Part shown: positions 54,335 through 64,000 of the stretch, piece by piece
Position numbering within the stretch: position 1 is the stretch's first letter
Layout: each line of letters starts with the position of its first letter
Assembly: GCA_030431485.1 (NCBI GenBank)
Contig: JAUIIR010000014.1
Coordinates: 1 to 64,000 of the forward strand
Source: Alphaproteobacteria bacterium
GTDB lineage: Bacteria; Pseudomonadota; Alphaproteobacteria; Rhodobacterales; Rhodobacteraceae
Direction of reading: 5' to 3'
DNA: 64,000 nt
Translations under genes and position numbers: made by a program
The notes under the pieces: model-generated
Told to the model about the DNA's origin: nothing
The model's input: only the letters and a program-made list of their open reading frames with translations
The model's database searches: none

Positions 54335-55732
54335 TTATGATCCAGTCCCGGCCTGGCAGATCGCATGGCCATGCGGCGTGTAGATGCCTGACAATTCGAC
54401 CCTGTTGCGACCGTTTTTCTTGGCGTCGTAAAGCGCGCGGTCGGCGGTGCGGCGCAAGGTGTGCATTGTCGTTTGCTCGCATTTGGCAGCGATGGCGACG
54501 CCGATACTGATTGTTGCGCGAACATGCGTGTGATCCTCAAGCGAGATTGCACTGCGTGCAACCGCATCGCGCAATCGGTTCGCAATAGTGCATGCCTCCT
54601 TGGCAGCGACGTCGGGCACAACGATCAGAAACTCCTCCCCCCCGTATCGCGCGATGAAATCCCCTGCGCGCAGCTTGCTTTGCATCGTCTTTGCGATCTG
54701 CGCGAGGATAGCGTCTCCCGCAGCGTGGCCATGATTGTCGTTGATGGCCTTGAAATGATCAATGTCGGCGATCAGGAGCGCAAGTCGTCTGGGGTACTCG
54801 GCCCGCAAACGATCTGTGCGGCGACAGTAATCGTCCAGTGCTCGTCGGTTTGAGAGGCCTGTCAGAGCATCCCGATAAGCCAACTCTCCTAGTTCCGAAG
54901 CGTTTTTCCGGGCGGTTTCCGAGGCGCACTTCAAACGTGTGAGGCGCGTTATGCGCAGCGCCAGCTCGTCAGGTGTCACGTCCAATGACACCTGATCGTC
55001 TGCGCCAAGATCGAGAGGAGAGGCATTTCGACCTGCCACATCAGTGACAAACAGCACCCGGCTGTCGCAACTCGCGGGATGGCTCTTAAGGGTTGCGAGA
55101 ACATCTCGTGTTTCGTCTTCGGTGTTGTCTTCGATCAGCACAAAGACGTCGGTCCCTTCATGGGGTGTACGCCTGACATCTTCGGGCGTTTGGTTGAAAA
55201 TTTTGAACCCCAACTTGACCGGGAGGTCGTACTTGAAGGTACTGCAGTGATCTGAAGCAGGTGTCGTCACAAAAGTAACATTGGCCTGACGGTCAAAATC
55301 GGCGAGCGGCTCTGCCATGCCTTGGATATGCGGCGTTTGAGAACGCGATGCCGCAGCACGATTTTTGGTGCGCATGAACTTACGCAACCGTGCTTTCAAG
55401 TCAGCGGCATCGGCACATGTGTCAATCACATCATGCGCTCCATCTATGAGAGCGCTGACACGCGCTGCTTGGTTTTCGCGCTGAACTGCCACGACAATTG
55501 TCGTGAGCTGTGTCTGTGGCTGCGATCTCATCAGCTTGCAGAATTTTCGGAGACGGAGCCCCGGCAGATCGTCGGCCACGATCAGCACATCGGGTGCTTC
55601 CTTCCGGATGAGCGCAAGTCCTTCGGCCTGCGTTGATGCCATGTCGACCTCATAGGCTGTGGTGTCCAGCCGCGCGCGTATATGGATGCGGCGGTTGCTC
55701 ATAGCGTCGATGATCAGAACAGTTCCTGTCAC
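54335..55732 (-). CDS. PleD-like diguanylate cyclase with degenerate receiver domains
   Basis: The 465-residue protein has the PleD layout: two receiver folds (about 3-120 and 150-270) and a GGDEF domain. The cyclase motif is intact as GGEEF (364-368) with an inhibitory RxxD site, RAGD (355-358), five residues before it. The first receiver aligns without gaps to Caulobacter PleD but has Ala53 where the phosphoacceptor Asp should be, and lacks the conserved Lys. The second is also degenerate. I chose GTG 55732 (GGAG six bases upstream); a TTG/ATG at 55777/55774 lacks one. It is divergent from the DUF3572 gene. Confidence 0.85.
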   Translation of the reverse strand: MTGTVLIIDAMSNRRIHIRARLDTTAYEVDMASTQAEGLALIRKEAPDVLIVADDLPGLRLRKFCKLMRSQPQTQLTTIVVAVQRENQAARVSALIDGAHDVIDTCADAADLKARLRKFMRTKNRAAASRSQTPHIQGMAEPLADFDRQANVTFVTTPASDHCSTFKYDLPVKLGFKIFNQTPEDVRRTPHEGTDVFVLIEDNTEDETRDVLATLKSHPASCDSRVLFVTDVAGRNASPLDLGADDQVSLDVTPDELALRITRLTRLKCASETARKNASELGELAYRDALTGLSNRRALDDYCRRTDRLRAEYPRRLALLIADIDHFKAINDNHGHAAGDAILAQIAKTMQSKLRAGDFIARYGGEEFLIVVPDVAAKEACTIANRLRDAVARSAISLEDHTHVRATISIGVAIAAKCEQTTMHTLRRTADRALYDAKKNGRNRVELSGIYTPHGHAICQAGTGS

Positions 55733-55823
55733 AGTATCTCCAAGATCTGCCGAAGACGTTAAGACTTTGCTCATCAATTCATTGCCGCTATTGGTTAAAA
55801 AAGCGTTTGGGAAATACTTAAAA

Positions 55824-56108
55824 ATGACGATGTCACGCGATGCAGCAGAGCAGCTCGCACTTCAAGCTGTGGTCTGGCTTGCTGGCAACGATGAGCTCTT
55901 GCCGGTTTTTATGGGGTCGACCGGAGCCGATGAGGCGGCGTTTCGGGAAAGCCTCGGGTCGTCAGAATTTCAGGCTTCGGTGCTCGATTTTATCATGATG
56001 GACGACGCTTGGGTGATTGCGTTTTGTGACACCCAAGCCGTTCCGTATGACCGGTTGATGCAAGCGCGTGCAGCTCTTCCAGGCGGTCAGCAGGTGAACT
56101 GGACATGA
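55824..56108 (+). CDS. DUF3572 family protein
   Basis: The 94-residue protein matches DUF3572: AEQLALQAVVWLAGNDELLPVFMGSTGAD in blocks, then FQASVLDFIMMDDAWVIAFC and GGQQ near the end. The function is unknown; the family often lies beside pleD. ATG 55824 and ATG 55830 are both possible starts. Its stop overlaps the HAD gene start in ATGA. Confidence 0.85.
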   Translation: MTMSRDAAEQLALQAVVWLAGNDELLPVFMGSTGADEAAFRESLGSSEFQASVLDFIMMDDAWVIAFCDTQAVPYDRLMQARAALPGGQQVNWT

Positions 56109-56812
56109 TGCGCAAGGATATCCGGGCCATTCTTTTCGACAAGGATGGCACGTTGTTTGACTTTGAAGCGACATGGAACGTTTGGGCCAAAGCTTTCCTG
56201 ATGCGGATGGCGAAAGACGACGAAAAGCGCGCAAGTGATCTTGGGCATCTTATAGGGTTTGATGTCGCAACTGGCGTCTTTCATCGCAATAGTTTCGTCA
56301 TCGCAGGCACGCCGGACGATCTTGTGGCGGTGCTCCATCCCGAGTTTCCGGAATTGTCAAAACACGCGCTAGCCGATCTGATCAATGAAGAGGCTGCTGC
56401 TGCACCGATGGTAGAAACCACTCCGCTGCGGCCGCTGCTTGAGCGCTTTTCAGCTGCAGGTTTGCAGCTGGGTGTTGCAACCAACGATGCCAAAGCTCCT
56501 GCGCTTGCGCATCTCGATGCGGCTGGCATCCGATCGTCTTTCGATTTCATCTGCGGTTCAGACAGCGGCTTCGGCGCAAAGCCTGAGCCGGGTCCGCTCT
56601 TGGCATTTTGTAAGGCTGTGAATGTCGCTCCGAACGCGGCGGTTATGGTTGGCGACAGCACGCATGATCTGGTCGCGGGCCGGGCTGCCGGTATGATAAC
56701 GGTGGCTGTTCTGACCGGTCTTGCCGCTGCTGCTGATCTGGAGCCGTTTGCGGATGTTGTGCTGCCCGACATCGGACATTTGCCGGCTTGGTTGGGTTTG
56801 GGTCGATCCTGA
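56105..56812 (+). CDS. HAD-superfamily phosphatase (phosphoglycolate phosphatase-like)
   Basis: The 235-residue protein has the HAD motifs: DKDGTLFDF with the nucleophile Asp (about 12-16), GVATND, KPEPGP with the conserved Lys, and GDSTHDLVAG. A helical cap lies between motifs I and II, as in Gph. It removes phosphate from a small metabolite, perhaps phosphoglycolate; the substrate is not certain. It overlaps the DUF3572 gene by four bases and is probably co-transcribed. Confidence 0.87.
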   Translation: MMRKDIRAILFDKDGTLFDFEATWNVWAKAFLMRMAKDDEKRASDLGHLIGFDVATGVFHRNSFVIAGTPDDLVAVLHPEFPELSKHALADLINEEAAAAPMVETTPLRPLLERFSAAGLQLGVATNDAKAPALAHLDAAGIRSSFDFICGSDSGFGAKPEPGPLLAFCKAVNVAPNAAVMVGDSTHDLVAGRAAGMITVAVLTGLAAAADLEPFADVVLPDIGHLPAWLGLGRS

Positions 56813-56906
56813 ACTGAAAATGACAAAAGCGACGGCATCCGTCGCGTTCCGGCAGGATTGGCTGCATTTGCGGTGCCTAGCTACAGTGGCAACGCAGGAG
56901 AATGCC

Positions 56907-58466
56907 ATGACAGAGGCTATGACACGCAAACGTCGGAGTGGGGGGCGGTCGGGTCATGCCGTACGCCGGGGAACGTCTGTGATTGAGCAGCTGCCTTGGA
57001 AGCTTCCGGTCAACATTGATCGCCCAACAGAGCCGCTGACCGAGGAAGGCGTGGCCCGCATGCACGATACGGCGATGGTGATCCTGGAAGAGATCGGCAT
57101 CGAGTTCCTGAACCCGAAGGCGGTGCAAATCCTTAAGAATGCAGGCTGTACGGTTGTTGGGGAAAACGTGCGGATGGACCGCGACTTCGTCATGGAGTGG
57201 GTTCGCAAAGCACCTCGGTCATTTACCATCACGCCGCGCAATCCGGAGCGAAAGATTGTGGTCGGGGAGGGCCATATCCTATTTGGAAACGTGTCCTCTC
57301 CGCCCAACTACTGGGACATGGAGGTTGGCCGCAAAGTGCCCGGCACCCGTGAGATGTGCCGCAACTTTCTAAAGCTTTCTCAGTATTTCAACTGCATTCA
57401 CTTTGTTGGAGGCTATCCGGTTGAACCTGTCGATATTCATGCCAGCGTGCGCCATCTTGATGTGCTCTATGACAAACTGACCCTGACCGACAAAGTCGCG
57501 CACGCGTATTCGCTGGGCAAGGAGCGCGTTGAAGATGTTATGGAGATGGTGCGTATTGCGGGCGGACTGACGCATCAGGAGTTTGATGCCAGTCCCCGAA
57601 TGTACACAAACATCAATTCCACCTCGCCACTCAAGCATGACCATCCGATGTTGGACGGCTGGATGCGATGCGCCACGCACGGTCAGGGTTGTATCGTTAC
57701 GCCATTCACACTGGCGGGGGCAATGGCTCCAGTGACAATGGCGGGTGCCGTCGCGCAGTCTCTGGCCGAAGGTCTGAGCGCTATCGTTCTCGCTCAGATC
57801 ATTCGTCCGGGCGCGCCGTGCGCCATCGGGACATTTACGTCGAACGTAGATATGAAATCTGGAGCGCCTGCTTTTGGGACACCAGAATACATGCGGGCGA
57901 CCCAAATGACTGGGCAAATGGCGCGGTTCTATGGATTGCCGATGCGCTCTTCGGGGGTTTGCGCGGCGAACGTTCCGGATGGGCAGGCCATGTGGGAGAC
58001 CGAACATAGCCTTTGGGCGGCAATCCAATCCGGGACGAATCTTGTTTACCATGCGGCAGGGTGGCTTGAAGGCGGCTTGATCGCCAGCCCAGAAAAGTTC
58101 GTGATGGATTGCGAAGTGATTCAGCAGTTGATCCGCTACATGGACCCCGCGATCTGCGATGTCAGCGACGAAGGTTTGGGTCTTGAGGCGATCCGCGAAG
58201 TCGGCAGCAATGGCCACTTCTTCGGCACCAAGCACACTCAAGAGCGCTATACGACCGCGTTCTATCAGCCGTTCCTGTCGGACTGGAAGAATTTCGAGGC
58301 TTGGGAAGCCGCTGGCAGTGTGTGGACGGCCGAACGCGCACATGTGATCTACAAAGCGATCCTTGACGAGTTTCAGGCACCGCTGATGGACGTTGCAATT
58401 CAAGAAGAGCTGTCTGCCTTTGTTGACCGTCGAAAAGCCGAAGGTGGCGCTCCGACGGATTTTTAA
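56907..58466 (+). CDS. Trimethylamine methyltransferase-family protein (MttB superfamily, non-pyrrolysine)
   Basis: The 519-residue protein belongs to the MttB superfamily of corrinoid-dependent methyltransferases: LTEEGVARMHDTAMVILEEIGIEF in blocks near the start, GNVSSPPNYWD, and FTLAGAMAPVTMAGA. The frame runs to a TAA stop with no in-frame TAG, so pyrrolysine is not used; such homologues demethylate quaternary amines such as glycine or proline betaine. No corrinoid protein gene is adjacent. GGAGAATGCC precedes ATG 56907. Confidence 0.88.
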   Translation: MTEAMTRKRRSGGRSGHAVRRGTSVIEQLPWKLPVNIDRPTEPLTEEGVARMHDTAMVILEEIGIEFLNPKAVQILKNAGCTVVGENVRMDRDFVMEWVRKAPRSFTITPRNPERKIVVGEGHILFGNVSSPPNYWDMEVGRKVPGTREMCRNFLKLSQYFNCIHFVGGYPVEPVDIHASVRHLDVLYDKLTLTDKVAHAYSLGKERVEDVMEMVRIAGGLTHQEFDASPRMYTNINSTSPLKHDHPMLDGWMRCATHGQGCIVTPFTLAGAMAPVTMAGAVAQSLAEGLSAIVLAQIIRPGAPCAIGTFTSNVDMKSGAPAFGTPEYMRATQMTGQMARFYGLPMRSSGVCAANVPDGQAMWETEHSLWAAIQSGTNLVYHAAGWLEGGLIASPEKFVMDCEVIQQLIRYMDPAICDVSDEGLGLEAIREVGSNGHFFGTKHTQERYTTAFYQPFLSDWKNFEAWEAAGSVWTAERAHVIYKAILDEFQAPLMDVAIQEELSAFVDRRKAEGGAPTDF

Positions 58467-58534: not shown

Positions 58535-59134
58535 ATGCATGGTCTCATCTTTCGCACGCTTGAAGCGTTTGTATCCGAAACATTCGGCCCTGCGTGTTGG
58601 GGTAAGGCGATTGCCTTATCCGGGCAGCCAGTCACGTCTTTCGAAGCGATGCTGCAATATGACAAGGCGTATCTTCCAAAACTATTGTGCGCCTGTGCCG
58701 GGGTACTTGATCGTCCCCAATCCGAAATCCTCGAAGATCTTGGGACCTACCTGATCACCCATCAAAACCATGCATCGGTGCGACGCTTGTTGCGCTTTGG
58801 TGGCCAGACGTTTTCGGATCTGTTGCACGCCCTCGACGATCTGCCTGACCGGACCCGAATGGTCGTGCCGGGTTTGCAACTGCCGCAGATCCTTGTTCGC
58901 GAACCTGTGCCACAGCGCTTTACAATCCTGTGTACCGGAGACCCACACGGCTTCGGCCATGTTTTGGTTGGCCTCCTGCGCGCAATGGCGGACGATTATG
59001 GAACGCTCGCCGTGCTGGATCATTTGGGTGACCGGGATCGGGCTGAGGTAATTGATGTGACGGTCGTCGAAACGGCTTTTGCAGATGATCGTGGCTTTTC
59101 GCTGACCGAAGCGGAACTGGTCGGTAAATTATGA
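58535..59134 (+). CDS. H-NOX-like (HNOB) protein lacking the heme-binding residues
   Basis: The 199-residue protein has the H-NOX fold signature from MHGLIFRTLEAFVSETFG to LLRFGGQTFSDLLHALDDLPDRTRMVVPGL, read in blocks. The proximal histidine of the LDDxH motif is replaced by Pro104 (codon CCT at 58844), and the YxSxR motif that binds heme propionates is absent (LCTGDPHGF around 132-140). Canonical H-NOX proteins bind NO or O2 through heme; this one probably cannot do so in the usual way. Its stop overlaps the HNOBA-GGDEF gene start by four bases, so the two proteins are likely partners. The ribosome site is weak. Confidence 0.85.
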   Translation: MHGLIFRTLEAFVSETFGPACWGKAIALSGQPVTSFEAMLQYDKAYLPKLLCACAGVLDRPQSEILEDLGTYLITHQNHASVRRLLRFGGQTFSDLLHALDDLPDRTRMVVPGLQLPQILVREPVPQRFTILCTGDPHGFGHVLVGLLRAMADDYGTLAVLDHLGDRDRAEVIDVTVVETAFADDRGFSLTEAELVGKL

Positions 59135-60150
59135 TCTCAGCCTGCGATTTGCTACTGGTGCTCAGGCCCATGCATGTTTGCATTGCGCCAACTGGCCACA
59201 TTCGGCAAGTTGGAAAAAGCTTTGCCAAACTTGCGCTCGCCGATCCGACTGGGTGTCGATTTCTAGAAGTCTTCGAAGTGCTGCGGCCAATAAAGCCGGC
59301 GACAATGACAGATTTGCGAAGCCTTGTGGGCCAGGTCTTGCGTTTAAGGCTTCGATCTGAACCGGGCCTTGTTCTGCGAGGCCTTGCGGTTGACGATTGT
59401 GCCGATGGCGTCATCCTCGACTTGTCTTTCGGTATCGCTGTTGTGGATGCGGTGCAGCGCTTTGGGCTGACAGCACAGGATTTTGCACCAAGTGATCTGG
59501 TGATGGAGCTCCTCTTTCTGCAAGAAGCGAAATCCAGCGCAATGGCAGCGTCTTTCAGTCTCAATGCGCGCCTGAATGGAGCTCGCCTCGCAGCCGAAAC
59601 CGCAGCGTTGACCGACGGTTTGACCGGACTCCACAATCGTCGGGCGCTGGATGCGGCACTGGAGCAATTGGGACAGTCCGATACCGAATACGCCGTTCTG
59701 CACATGGATCTGGACCGCTTCAAACAAGTCAATGATAGTCTCGGGCATGCCGTGGGCGACGAGGTCCTAAAACGCGTTGCCGCAATCATGCGCAGCCATA
59801 CCCGGCAGGACGATCTTCTGATCCGATCCGGAGGTGATGAATTCATTATCCTATGCCCTGGACTAACGAACCGGACACGTCTCAACGAACTCGCGGCTTC
59901 GTTGATCGGGGACATTTCAGAGCCGTTTCCGCTTGCCACCCACTCAATCACAATTGGCGCAAGTATCGGGGTGATGGTCACGCACGATACAATTTCTGTA
60001 CTGGGCGCAGAGGTGGTAGAGCGCGCCGACATCGCACTCTACGCGGCCAAGCGACAAGGGCGTGGGCGACATCTTTTCTGGTCGCCGGACATGGGAACGA
60101 CCCTGGCAGCCCTCGATCTTCCGAAAACTGCATCCCGAGACCAAACCTGA
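59131..60150 (+). CDS. Diguanylate cyclase with HNOBA input domain
   Basis: The 339-residue protein has an N-terminal HNOBA (heme NO-binding associated) domain at about 15-135: FEVLRPIKPATM, GQVLRLRLRSEPGLVLRGLA and a run ending FGLTAQDFAPSDLVMELLFL, read in blocks. A short linker leads to a GGDEF cyclase domain with intact GGDEF (234-238) and the inhibitory site RQDD (225-228). It makes c-di-GMP. No membrane segment is seen. HNOBA domains normally receive signals from H-NOX domains, here supplied by the overlapping upstream gene. Confidence 0.88.
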   Translation: MISACDLLLVLRPMHVCIAPTGHIRQVGKSFAKLALADPTGCRFLEVFEVLRPIKPATMTDLRSLVGQVLRLRLRSEPGLVLRGLAVDDCADGVILDLSFGIAVVDAVQRFGLTAQDFAPSDLVMELLFLQEAKSSAMAASFSLNARLNGARLAAETAALTDGLTGLHNRRALDAALEQLGQSDTEYAVLHMDLDRFKQVNDSLGHAVGDEVLKRVAAIMRSHTRQDDLLIRSGGDEFIILCPGLTNRTRLNELAASLIGDISEPFPLATHSITIGASIGVMVTHDTISVLGAEVVERADIALYAAKRQGRGRHLFWSPDMGTTLAALDLPKTASRDQT

Positions 60151-60191: not shown

Positions 60192-61547
60192 ATGGGAACT
60201 TTGCTTCGTCTTTTTGTTGTTGGTTTTTTCGTCATTGGCACAGGTCCAGTGCAGATACCTGCGCAAACCCCCGATCAACCGACAGGTACAATCGCCGTTG
60301 CTGACAGTGCCGAACAGGATGCTGCCATCGCCACCCGTATCCGCGAGATCCTGATGGAACTTGACGGATATGACGATGTGACGGTCACCGTGAATTCGGG
60401 AATTGTGACACTTCGCGGTACAGCCCTAGATGGGCCCGCCGTCGTCCGCTTGAATGAGATCGCCGGACGCGTTGAAGGTGTGGTCACCATCGAAAACCGC
60501 GTTCAGGAAACCACTGACGTTGTGCGGCGGCTTGATCCGGCACTGGAACGGTTTTTTGCAAGGTTCGAACAGTTCATCAACTATCTTCCGCTTCTCGCCA
60601 TTGCGGTGGCGGCCTTCGCCATCGTGGTAATGATTGGCTTTGTGATCGCCCGGCTCAAAAGGCCTTGGGATCGTTTGGCACCCAACGCCTTCATCGCCGA
60701 CATTTATCGCCAGGTTATTCGCATTGCTTTTATCCTGGGCGGACTGGTCATTGCCCTCGACATTCTCGGGGCAACCGCGCTTTTGTCGACCATACTTGGC
60801 GCAGCAGGTATCATTGGCCTCGCCATCGGTTTCGCAGTCCGGGACACCGTCGAAAACTTCATTGCTTCGATCATGCTGTCGATTCGCCAACCGTTTCGTC
60901 CAAATGATCAGGTCGAGATAGAGGGTGACATTGGCAAGGTGATCCGCCTCACCAGTCGGGCGACCATCCTCCTCAGTTTTGATGGAAATCACATCCGCAT
61001 CCCCAATGCGACGGTCTTCAAGAGCCGGATTGTGAACTATTCCCGCAATGACGAACGCCGCTTCCTGATCAGCCTTGGCGTTGCCTATGACACCGATCTG
61101 GCGCGCGCACAGGATCTGGCACTTCAAACCGTCACATCTTTGCCTTTTGTGATCAGCGAACCTGCACCGGCGGTTTGGATCGAGGATTTAGGCGACAGCG
61201 CCATCATTCTGAATGTGGCAGGATGGATTCGCCAGCATGAAACAAGCTACCTCAAGGCGCGCAGCGAAGCCTGGCGCCTGTGTCTCGCGGCCTTTGATCA
61301 CGCTGGAATCGTGATGCCGGAGACGACCCTGCGCGTTGTCGGCATTGGTGACTCAGATGTTGCAGTCCCAACAGTCTCGGAGACCACGCAATCTCGCCCG
61401 TCAAATGCTGCCGCCGTTGCCGCCGCAACCGCGACCGTTGGCGACACAGAGGCTGCGATGGACAAAGAGCTTGAACGGATTGTTGCGTCTGAACGCGCAG
61501 AAAAAGGTGGGGATGATCTTTTGAAGAAAGACGCACCGGAAGAGTAG
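60192..61547 (+). CDS. Mechanosensitive channel (MscS family) with BON domain
   Basis: The 451-residue protein has a signal-like N-terminus (1-25), a BON domain (about 43-106; VTVNSGIVTLRGTA), three membrane segments (about 131-152, 173-191, 193-218) and the MscS beta domain (QPFRPNDQVEIEGDIGKV, then IRIPNATVFKSRIVNYS). The pore helix is rich in Ala and Gly (GAAGIIGLAIGFAVRD), as expected. A charged C-terminal tail follows. It releases solutes under osmotic shock. The BON domain faces the periplasm and may touch the outer membrane or peptidoglycan. Confidence 0.9.
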   Translation: MGTLLRLFVVGFFVIGTGPVQIPAQTPDQPTGTIAVADSAEQDAAIATRIREILMELDGYDDVTVTVNSGIVTLRGTALDGPAVVRLNEIAGRVEGVVTIENRVQETTDVVRRLDPALERFFARFEQFINYLPLLAIAVAAFAIVVMIGFVIARLKRPWDRLAPNAFIADIYRQVIRIAFILGGLVIALDILGATALLSTILGAAGIIGLAIGFAVRDTVENFIASIMLSIRQPFRPNDQVEIEGDIGKVIRLTSRATILLSFDGNHIRIPNATVFKSRIVNYSRNDERRFLISLGVAYDTDLARAQDLALQTVTSLPFVISEPAPAVWIEDLGDSAIILNVAGWIRQHETSYLKARSEAWRLCLAAFDHAGIVMPETTLRVVGIGDSDVAVPTVSETTQSRPSNAAAVAAATATVGDTEAAMDKELERIVASERAEKGGDDLLKKDAPEE

Positions 61548-62458: not shown

Positions 62459-63250
62459 CTATGACGCGGTCAATGTTGCGGTCTCCTTTCGCGTTTTTTT
62501 GGTAGCTTTGGAACTGGCCTTGAAACGGTAGCTGTCGTTGCCCGTTTCCAAGATGTGGCAGCGGTGCGTGAGACGGTCGAGTAGAGCGGTGGTCATCTTT
62601 GCATCTCCGAAGACCTGCGCCCATTCTGAGAAGCTCAGGTTGGTTGTGATGATCACGCTGGTGCGCTCGTATAGTTTGCTGAGAAGATGGAAGAGCAGCG
62701 CCCCACCTGATGAACTGAACGGCAGGTAGCCAAGCTCGTCCAAGATGACCAAGTCGACCTTGGTCAGCATTTCGGCAATTTTCCCAGCTTTTCCGCTCGC
62801 TTTTTCTTGCTCCAGTGCATTGACCAGCTCCACTGTTGAGAAGAACCGCACTTTACGTCTGTGGTGCTCGATCGCCTGAACACCGATTGCAGTGGCGGTG
62901 TGGCTTTTGCCCGTGCCGGGCCCACCGATGAGAACGACGTTCTCGGCATTTTCGATGAACTCACACCGGTGTAACTGCCGCACTTTCGCTTCGTTGATTT
63001 CGCTGGACGCAAAATCAAATCCGGTGAGGTCTTTGTATGCAGGGAAGCGGGCGGCCTTTGTGTGGTAGGCAATGGATCGAACCTCGCGTTCCGCCATTTC
63101 AGCCTTGAGCAACTGTGACAACATCGGTGTCGCGGCTTCAAAGGCCGGGGCGCCTTGGGTGACCAGGTCTTCGACGGCGTTTGCCATGCCATAGAGCTTG
63201 AGACTGCGCAGCATGATGACGATGGATGCTCCGGCAGGGTCATGACGCAT
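62459..63250 (-). CDS. istB: IstB, IS21-family helper ATPase
   Basis: IstB is an AAA+ ATPase that selects the target and activates the IstA transposase. The 263-residue protein has Walker A GGPGTGKS (about 109-116), Walker [13 protein letters not shown] and the sensor segment [12 protein letters not shown] basic tail, [13 protein letters not shown], follows. Its start overlaps the end of istA by 11 bases, the normal order in IS21. Confidence 0.95.
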
Positions 63251-64000
63251 GGCGCTTCTCCCCTGCCTGCCTCAAGCCGTCATAGCGATCCAGGTTTGCT
63301 TCGGGCGTCGTTTGCAAGGCCAGGGCTTCCGGCGGGTCGACTTCTGGATGTTCCGTAGGCTTACGGTCGATCAACCGGTGTAGCAGGTTCAGGATATGCG
63401 TCTTGGTGGGCACACCCGCTTCCAGCGCGAGGTCGACCGCCCGCAAAACGTCCTCTTCATTGTGGTGGAGAACCAACGACAGGATATCGACCATTTCCCT
63501 GTCACCCCCGTCCTTGCGCAACATATGTTCCTGCAGGCGTCGGAAGGCTTCCGGCATCTCGGTAAAGGGCGCGCCATTGCGAAGGGCACCAGGCTTGCGC
63601 TGAATAACAGCAAGATAGTGCCGCCAGTCATAAACAACCTTGCCAGATTTACGATGGGACCGGTCGATGATCCGTCCATGTTCACAGACCGTTTGCCCTT
63701 CGGCCACAACGACCACTCTGTCAGGGTAGACATGCAGGCTGACACGGCGGTTCGCAAAGCTGGCGGGCACGCTATACCGGTTGCGCTCGAATGTGATCAG
63801 GCATGTGGGGGACACTCGCTTGCTGTGTTCGATAAATCCATCGAAGGCGGGCGGCAGAACCATCAGCATGGGCTTCTCAGCTGCCCACACATCAGAGATG
63901 GACCCTGGCAAGGCCTTGTGCGGCGTCTCTTCCCACAAAGCGATGCAGCGATCTTCAAGCCATTGGTTCAGTTCGGCCAGATCGGCAAAGACAGGCATGA
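63240..64000 (-). CDS. istA: IstA transposase, C-terminal part (runs off the edge)
   Basis: Reading from the right edge, at least 252 residues of the IS21-family transposase are present; the N-terminal DNA-binding and most of the DDE catalytic core lie outside the window. Visible are the end of the core ([21 protein letters not shown]), the segment with LPPAFDGF and [21 protein letters not shown] in blocks, and a tail with [19 protein letters not shown]. The Met at 63998 is internal, not the start. Confidence 0.93.

Follow-up and report, generated by a model that had tools for sequence, protein, structure and literature searches.

A proline-type H-NOX-like protein of published Group 5 and its overlapping GGDEF cyclase gene in a relative of Marivita

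Gene organization at the H-NOX locus

The window analysed here is the whole 64,000-nucleotide stretch at positions 1 to 64,000 (forward strand) of contig JAUIIR010000014.1 (assembly GCA_030431485.1, Rhodobacteraceae); the named sequences nearest to the source genome are those of Marivita, with identities up to 91%. Its plus strand carries a gene for a 199-aa H-NOX-like protein (58535..59134; ATG at 58535, TGA stop at 59132-59134), which is the sole HNOB match in its genome (94% complete). The protein scores 73.3 bits with Pfam HNOB (PF07700; cut-off 25.5), the match covering profile positions 1-157 of 163, and its AlphaFold model, calculated without cofactor, reaches a pLDDT of 87.3 and a pTM of 0.83; the top PDB matches of this model in Foldseek are Nostoc H-NOX (TM 0.77-0.84, E 3e-12 to 1e-10). 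Judged from sequence and predicted model together, the protein has the H-NOX fold, and a sequence-only reading of the locus was right to describe the fold sequence as well kept. The same reading had placed a proline at the proximal His and found the YxSxR motif missing, and the alignments bear out both points: Pro104 (codon 58844..58846, plus strand) stands in the column of the heme-ligating His105 of Nostoc H-NOX in pairwise as well as multiple alignment (LDDLPDR in the window protein vs LDNLHAR in Nostoc), and the YxSxR columns of the multiple alignment read C-G-P. The proximal His and YxSxR, which are the criteria of heme-binding, gas-sensing H-NOX, are on this alignment both absent from the window protein.

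The stop of this gene overlaps the start of the next by 4 nt (ATGA, 59131..59134, plus strand; the cyclase ATG lies over the H-NOX TGA). The second gene (59131..60150, plus strand) encodes a predicted diguanylate cyclase of 339 aa with an HNOBA/PAS-like N-terminus (residues about 1-110), a long helix (123-159) and a GGDEF domain (159-312; Pfam GGDEF 141 bits), and its predicted model has a pLDDT of 85.5 and a pTM of 0.59. By its sequence the protein carries the GGDEF active-site motif (residues 234-238) and the I-site RxxD (RQDD, 225-228) of active diguanylate cyclases, so that the earlier description of an overlapping cyclase with both sites intact stands. The HNOBA domain also ascribed to it falls just short of the cut-off in the window protein: PF07701 scores 23.2 bits against a cut-off of 23.4, over residues 6-76 and the N-terminal third of the profile, and 22 of the 23 aligned cyclases, the window one included, match at E <= 0.1 (best 6e-8).

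A cyclase gene lies downstream of the H-NOX gene at 164/164 loci outside Marivita and at 17/17 Marivita loci (at least 1.1 kb of downstream DNA), counts that come from a looser rule than the start-codon rule under which a partner was placed at 103/106 loci (missing at L067, L138 and L149, the last at a contig end). Among the 103 pairs placed, 74 have the same -4 offset, and the GGDEF motif was found in 101 of the 103 partner cyclases searched. The pairing of H-NOX with an HNOBA-GGDEF protein, asserted earlier from the one locus, is kept across many genera of Rhodobacteraceae. Because of the pairing, the overlap and the co-conservation, a physical and regulatory partnership of the two proteins is very likely, and they are probably co-translated.

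Upstream of the pair lies a plus-strand gene of the MttB family (trimethylamine methyltransferase family; 56721..58466; Pfam MTTB 725.7 bits), for which 56721 is the furthest TTG and the actual start is probably more internal. It is preceded by a HAD-family hydrolase gene (56105..56812, plus strand), by a DUF3572 gene of the same block (55659-56108, plus strand) and, four genes upstream of the H-NOX gene, by a gene whose PleD-like product is another GGDEF protein carrying a receiver domain (54335-55777, minus strand). MttB is found upstream of H-NOX at 16/17 Marivita loci and at 75/162 loci elsewhere that include 1.3 kb or more of upstream DNA, and HAD near it at 16/17 and 61/162, respectively (loci that were too short being scored as misses). 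MttB is a frequent neighbour, then, and might conceivably belong to the switch. On a plasmid of Phaeobacter sp. G2 the gene order is diguanylate cyclase, DUF3572, HAD, MttB, H-NOX, GGDEF. Downstream of the cyclase gene lies that of an MscS-type mechanosensitive channel with a BON domain (60192-61547, plus strand), which is nearby at 16/17 Marivita loci vs 1/164 others, some of the latter with little DNA past the cyclase and likewise scored as misses when too short. The window ends in an IS21-type element with an IstB ATPase and the C-terminal part of a Mu-type transposase (62459-63998, minus strand).

Proximal residue and heme motifs among relatives

The gene for the H-NOX-like protein is present in 17/17 Marivita genomes examined, the source genome included, and all 17 distinct sequences have Pro at the proximal column; two of these genomes (G013, G016) have in addition a canonical, high-scoring H-NOX in which His, Y and S are kept. 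Within Marivita the gene looks to be under purifying selection, with a median dN/dS of 0.14 (56 of the 66 pairs with finite dS, 12 sequences), a rough value given that the median pS is 0.69, synonymous sites are near saturation and 10 pairs are saturated; pN/pS is <= 0.40 across all 66 pairs. The check on homologues that had been proposed for Pro104 therefore shows conservation, and a one-strain mutation is rejected, since Pro occurs in 17/17 Marivita sequences and in 127/167 relatives elsewhere.

These relatives come from a survey of 394 genomes sampled across Rhodobacteraceae, of which 296 have an HNOB match; regions were drawn from 80 of the better-scoring matches and from another 80 genomes taken in the order of the list (30 loci and 50 regions). 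This gave 168 distinct same-clade sequences outside Marivita, identical ones counted once, and, after removal of one fragment without the proximal column, n=167. The proximal column holds Pro in 127 sequences, His in 11 and other residues in 29 (N 5, Q 5, S 4, R 4, A 4, E 2, G 2, K 1, D 1, T 1); hence His is absent from 156/167. The first sample set (89 distinct) is biased to His, as His lifts the HNOB score, and since this better-scoring set holds all 11 His sequences (11/89) and the later, lower-scoring set none (0/78), the real share of His in the clade is probably below 7%. A complete YxSxR was found in 0/167 relatives, the His-keeping ones included; the first 89 had been distinguished from canonical sequences by their lack of Y and S together, which makes the absence there partly a matter of construction, and the later 78 were assigned by profile alone and not by their YxSxR residues. 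Among 40 distinct canonical sequences, 40 keep the proximal His, which was no criterion in defining that set; the set was first defined by Y134 and S136 and later by profile, so that its invariance at these two sites is partly by construction, and R138 was left unscored in its rows, most of which are offset by one residue at column 138.

The propionate-holding sites of canonical proteins, 136 and 138 in Nostoc numbering, rank high in variability among the Pro types (86th and 93rd percentile of entropy), and hydrophobic core positions are conserved with changed residues (W74 to L, F112 to V, Y83 to L). It had been proposed that heme might be held by His98 or His138 instead, and both were rejected as substitute ligands, as they are kept in 78/127 and 2/127 Pro types, respectively. 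Cysteine reaches a conservation above 60% at none of the positions among the 127 Pro types, the best seen being Cys133 of the window protein (70/127). Of the columns scanned in the first sample, position 136 (Nostoc S136, window residue 135) covaries most strongly with the proximal residue, W or F being found there in 14/22 non-Pro vs 2/67 Pro sequences (z 7.2). The later sequences alone give 3/18 vs 3/60 (Fisher p 0.13) and all sequences together 17/40 vs 5/127, and only 1 independent pair falls on well-supported branches; this covariation is unproven.

The trees contain 14 changes between Pro and non-Pro and 10 between His and non-His, and the joint tree of H-NOX and cyclase contains 10 and 8; with 11/97 and 18/88 inner branches starred, support is weak, the counts are rough and gains are not separable from losses. 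Of 289 genomes drawn from the class, a thin sample for asking whether the clade is confined to Rhodobacteraceae, eight give a match, four of them Rhodobacteraceae. The three best matches (253-279 bits) are clade members from Rhodobacteraceae, and the remaining five (one from the same family, four from other families; 35-120 bits, E 3e-8 to 2e-34) are classed as canonical by score and retain the His. The H-NOX matches of genomes G192 and G287 each contain one internal stop codon, so that the gene may be lost in individual lineages.

A cyclase partner independent of His-ligated heme, and its rivals

In canonical H-NOX, NO binding switches the partner off through breakage of the Fe-His bond. It may follow that an H-NOX fold built without this bond rests in the partner-inhibiting conformation and keeps the cyclase down, a step taken by analogy with the canonical proteins. 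The H-NOX-like protein would normally be heme-free, or at least without His ligation, and some input that is not gas on His-heme would relieve the cyclase, candidates being a ligand bound within the still hydrophobic pocket and the H-NOX-to-cyclase stoichiometry. That H-NOX inhibits the cyclase in Pro types is suggested by analogy with the genetics of P. denitrificans, from one study in another genus. Since both heme motifs are lost clade-wide and the ligand site varies even to charged residues, gas sensing by His-heme appears unlikely in Pro types, and the earlier proposal that the pair senses something other than gas on His-ligated heme fits the data. Our literature search, in which few subscription papers were covered, returned no heme-content measurement for a Pro-type protein, and it is from the sequences that we infer the heme-free state. 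We therefore read the Pro-type H-NOX as probably an inhibitory, heme-His-independent regulator of the cyclase; that Group 5 H-NOX proteins act in this heme-His-independent manner, as co-translated partners setting the activity of an HNOBA-GGDEF cyclase, we regard as somewhat probable. The fold, the pairing, the overlap, the conservation and the loss of both heme motifs are, at the level of sequence, established.

It would be possible that the protein is still a heme NO sensor with another axial ligand (e.g., His2, Tyr42 or solvent), in which NO switches the cyclase, and we consider this improbable. His2 is the best-kept His (113/127 Pro types) and residue 2 adjoins the heme in canonical H-NOX. 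It is, however, a weak candidate for a substitute ligand: because 10/11 His types carry it as well, it is no replacement. Moreover, K, R, E, D, A and G all occur at the ligand position, and the propionate motif varies freely. Table 4 of PMC8846402 lists the D. shibae H-NOX, in which YxSxR is likewise missing, among heme NO sensors, but this protein has kept its proximal His. The biofilm of P. denitrificans responds to NO, according to Kumar and Spiro (2017; PMC5588039). On the other side, the H-NOX gene is present in 17/17 Marivita genomes, vs NirK above cut-off in 5/17 and a full-profile cytochrome-d1 (NirS-type) match in 2 others. The source genome has weak partial matches only, to NirK as well as to the NirS-type, and 16/17 Marivita genomes pass the Pfam cut-off for PF02239, 14 of them over partial stretches at 27-36 bits. 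No tie between H-NOX and dissimilatory nitrite reductase (NirK and NirS-type) was found within the 17 Marivita genomes, and since the H-NOX gene does not track this enzyme, endogenous NO is mildly disfavoured as the reason why Marivita keeps it; algae or neighbours are a possible source of NO.

Alternatively, the pocket may hold another small hydrophobic molecule, and the pair would then be a metabolite-responsive c-di-GMP switch rather than a gas-responsive one. The positions taken as pocket-lining are hydrophobic and conserved in the Pro types, yet their residue types are changed and the motif at the heme edge is lost; the frequent presence of MttB nearby points in the same direction. A filled, ligand-free core would likewise show conserved aliphatics, however, MttB was not found upstream in 87/162 non-Marivita loci, and the analysis offers no candidate ligand, and we hold this explanation to be rather unlikely. 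That the gene is functionless and decaying, as the loss of two heme motifs and the internal stops in the single genomes G287 and G192 could indicate, is very improbable: the gene is under apparent purifying selection, the motif of the clade is conserved, and gene and cyclase are kept together in 17/17 Marivita genomes. Extending the preferred heme-His-independent reading, we speculate, with low expectation, that Group 5 forms a separate heme-free module of Rhodobacteraceae in which an H-NOX fold with a non-heme ligand in its former heme pocket controls the diguanylate cyclase, the His state having switched repeatedly (8-10 or more changes on the weakly supported trees) and His forms of the D. 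shibae type being leftovers of an ancestral heme protein.

Relation to known H-NOX systems

The kind of protein described here has already been published, and the window holds a further member of it. Lee-Lopez and Yukl (2022; PMC8738867) distinguish among H-NOX proteins a fifth cluster of very large size (Group 5), built from the P. denitrificans H-NOX, in which less than 10% of the proteins have the proximal His and most have Pro, and which is without a conserved Cys, and they ask how such proteins could sense. The proximal counts obtained here (His 11/167, Pro 127/167) agree with this description, and the window protein scores 269.6 bits with the clade profile vs 54.2 with the canonical one, both profiles being built here and the clade profile including the window sequence itself; on these profiles and the published description, it is a member of Group 5. 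No difference between Group 5 and the Marivita protein was found beyond sequence divergence. A figure legend of the same paper names GGDEF, MTTB and HAD among the neighbour families of the five groups together, and all three adjoin the window H-NOX; as the legend pools the groups, the tie of MTTB and HAD to Group 5 is our inference. The novelty implied in the sequence-only reading has to be given up, as the cluster and the Pro substitution appear in this paper and the missing His and overlapping cyclase in that of Kumar and Spiro (2017).

Canonical H-NOX proteins (Nostoc, Shewanella; sGC beta1) share with the window protein the fold (TM 0.77-0.84 to Nostoc) and conserved glycines but differ from it in having the proximal His and YxSxR; several of them inhibit their partner in the NO-bound state (PMC8846402). 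Kumar and Spiro (2017; PMC5588039) report that the axial His is missing in the H-NOX proteins of P. denitrificans and R. sphaeroides, that hnoX and dgcA of P. denitrificans (Pden_3719/Pden_3720) overlap, and that loss of hnoX gives less biofilm and loss of both cyclases more, from which they infer inhibition of DgcA by H-NOX; NO affects the biofilm partly without hnoX. Quantification of c-di-GMP in this species was not achieved in later work (PMC12582929). The H-NOX of P. denitrificans strain HAMBI_2443, which we take to be Pden_3719, has Pro at the proximal position and groups with the window protein in one clade. The two systems thus share the overlapping gene pair, the missing axial His and the Pro in its place, and the proteins are 33.5% identical over 96% of the protein. 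P. ferrooxidans, an annotated relative, has no MttB gene adjoining its H-NOX gene, unlike the window locus.

An H-NOX annotation is commonly taken to mean an NO sensor, and within Rhodobacteraceae the sequence does not warrant this label, because 156/167 relatives outside Marivita are without the His. The D. shibae H-NOX (Dshi_2815) is reported to inhibit Dgc1 when NO-bound (Bedrunka 2018, as cited in PMC7232146 and PMC8846402). We compared the only HNOB match of a genome taken as D. shibae on account of a 6,000-base stretch identical to plasmid NC_009955.1; this sequence is presumably Dshi_2815, since it is the sole HNOB match, D. shibae has a single H-NOX gene (PMC6473078) and Dshi_2815 is the one named in PMC7232146. 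It belongs to the same clade as the window protein, has the same kind of cyclase partner and is likewise without YxSxR, but it keeps the proximal His (GLDDLHDRARL) where the window protein has Pro. Hence the NO result in D. shibae stems from a His-keeping minority form, a point absent from the published passages that we compared, and NO control of c-di-GMP in roseobacters, Pro types included, is not to be generalised from it. Since His and Pro forms occur naturally beside cyclases of one kind, the question of sensing raised by Lee-Lopez and Yukl (2022) becomes directly testable.
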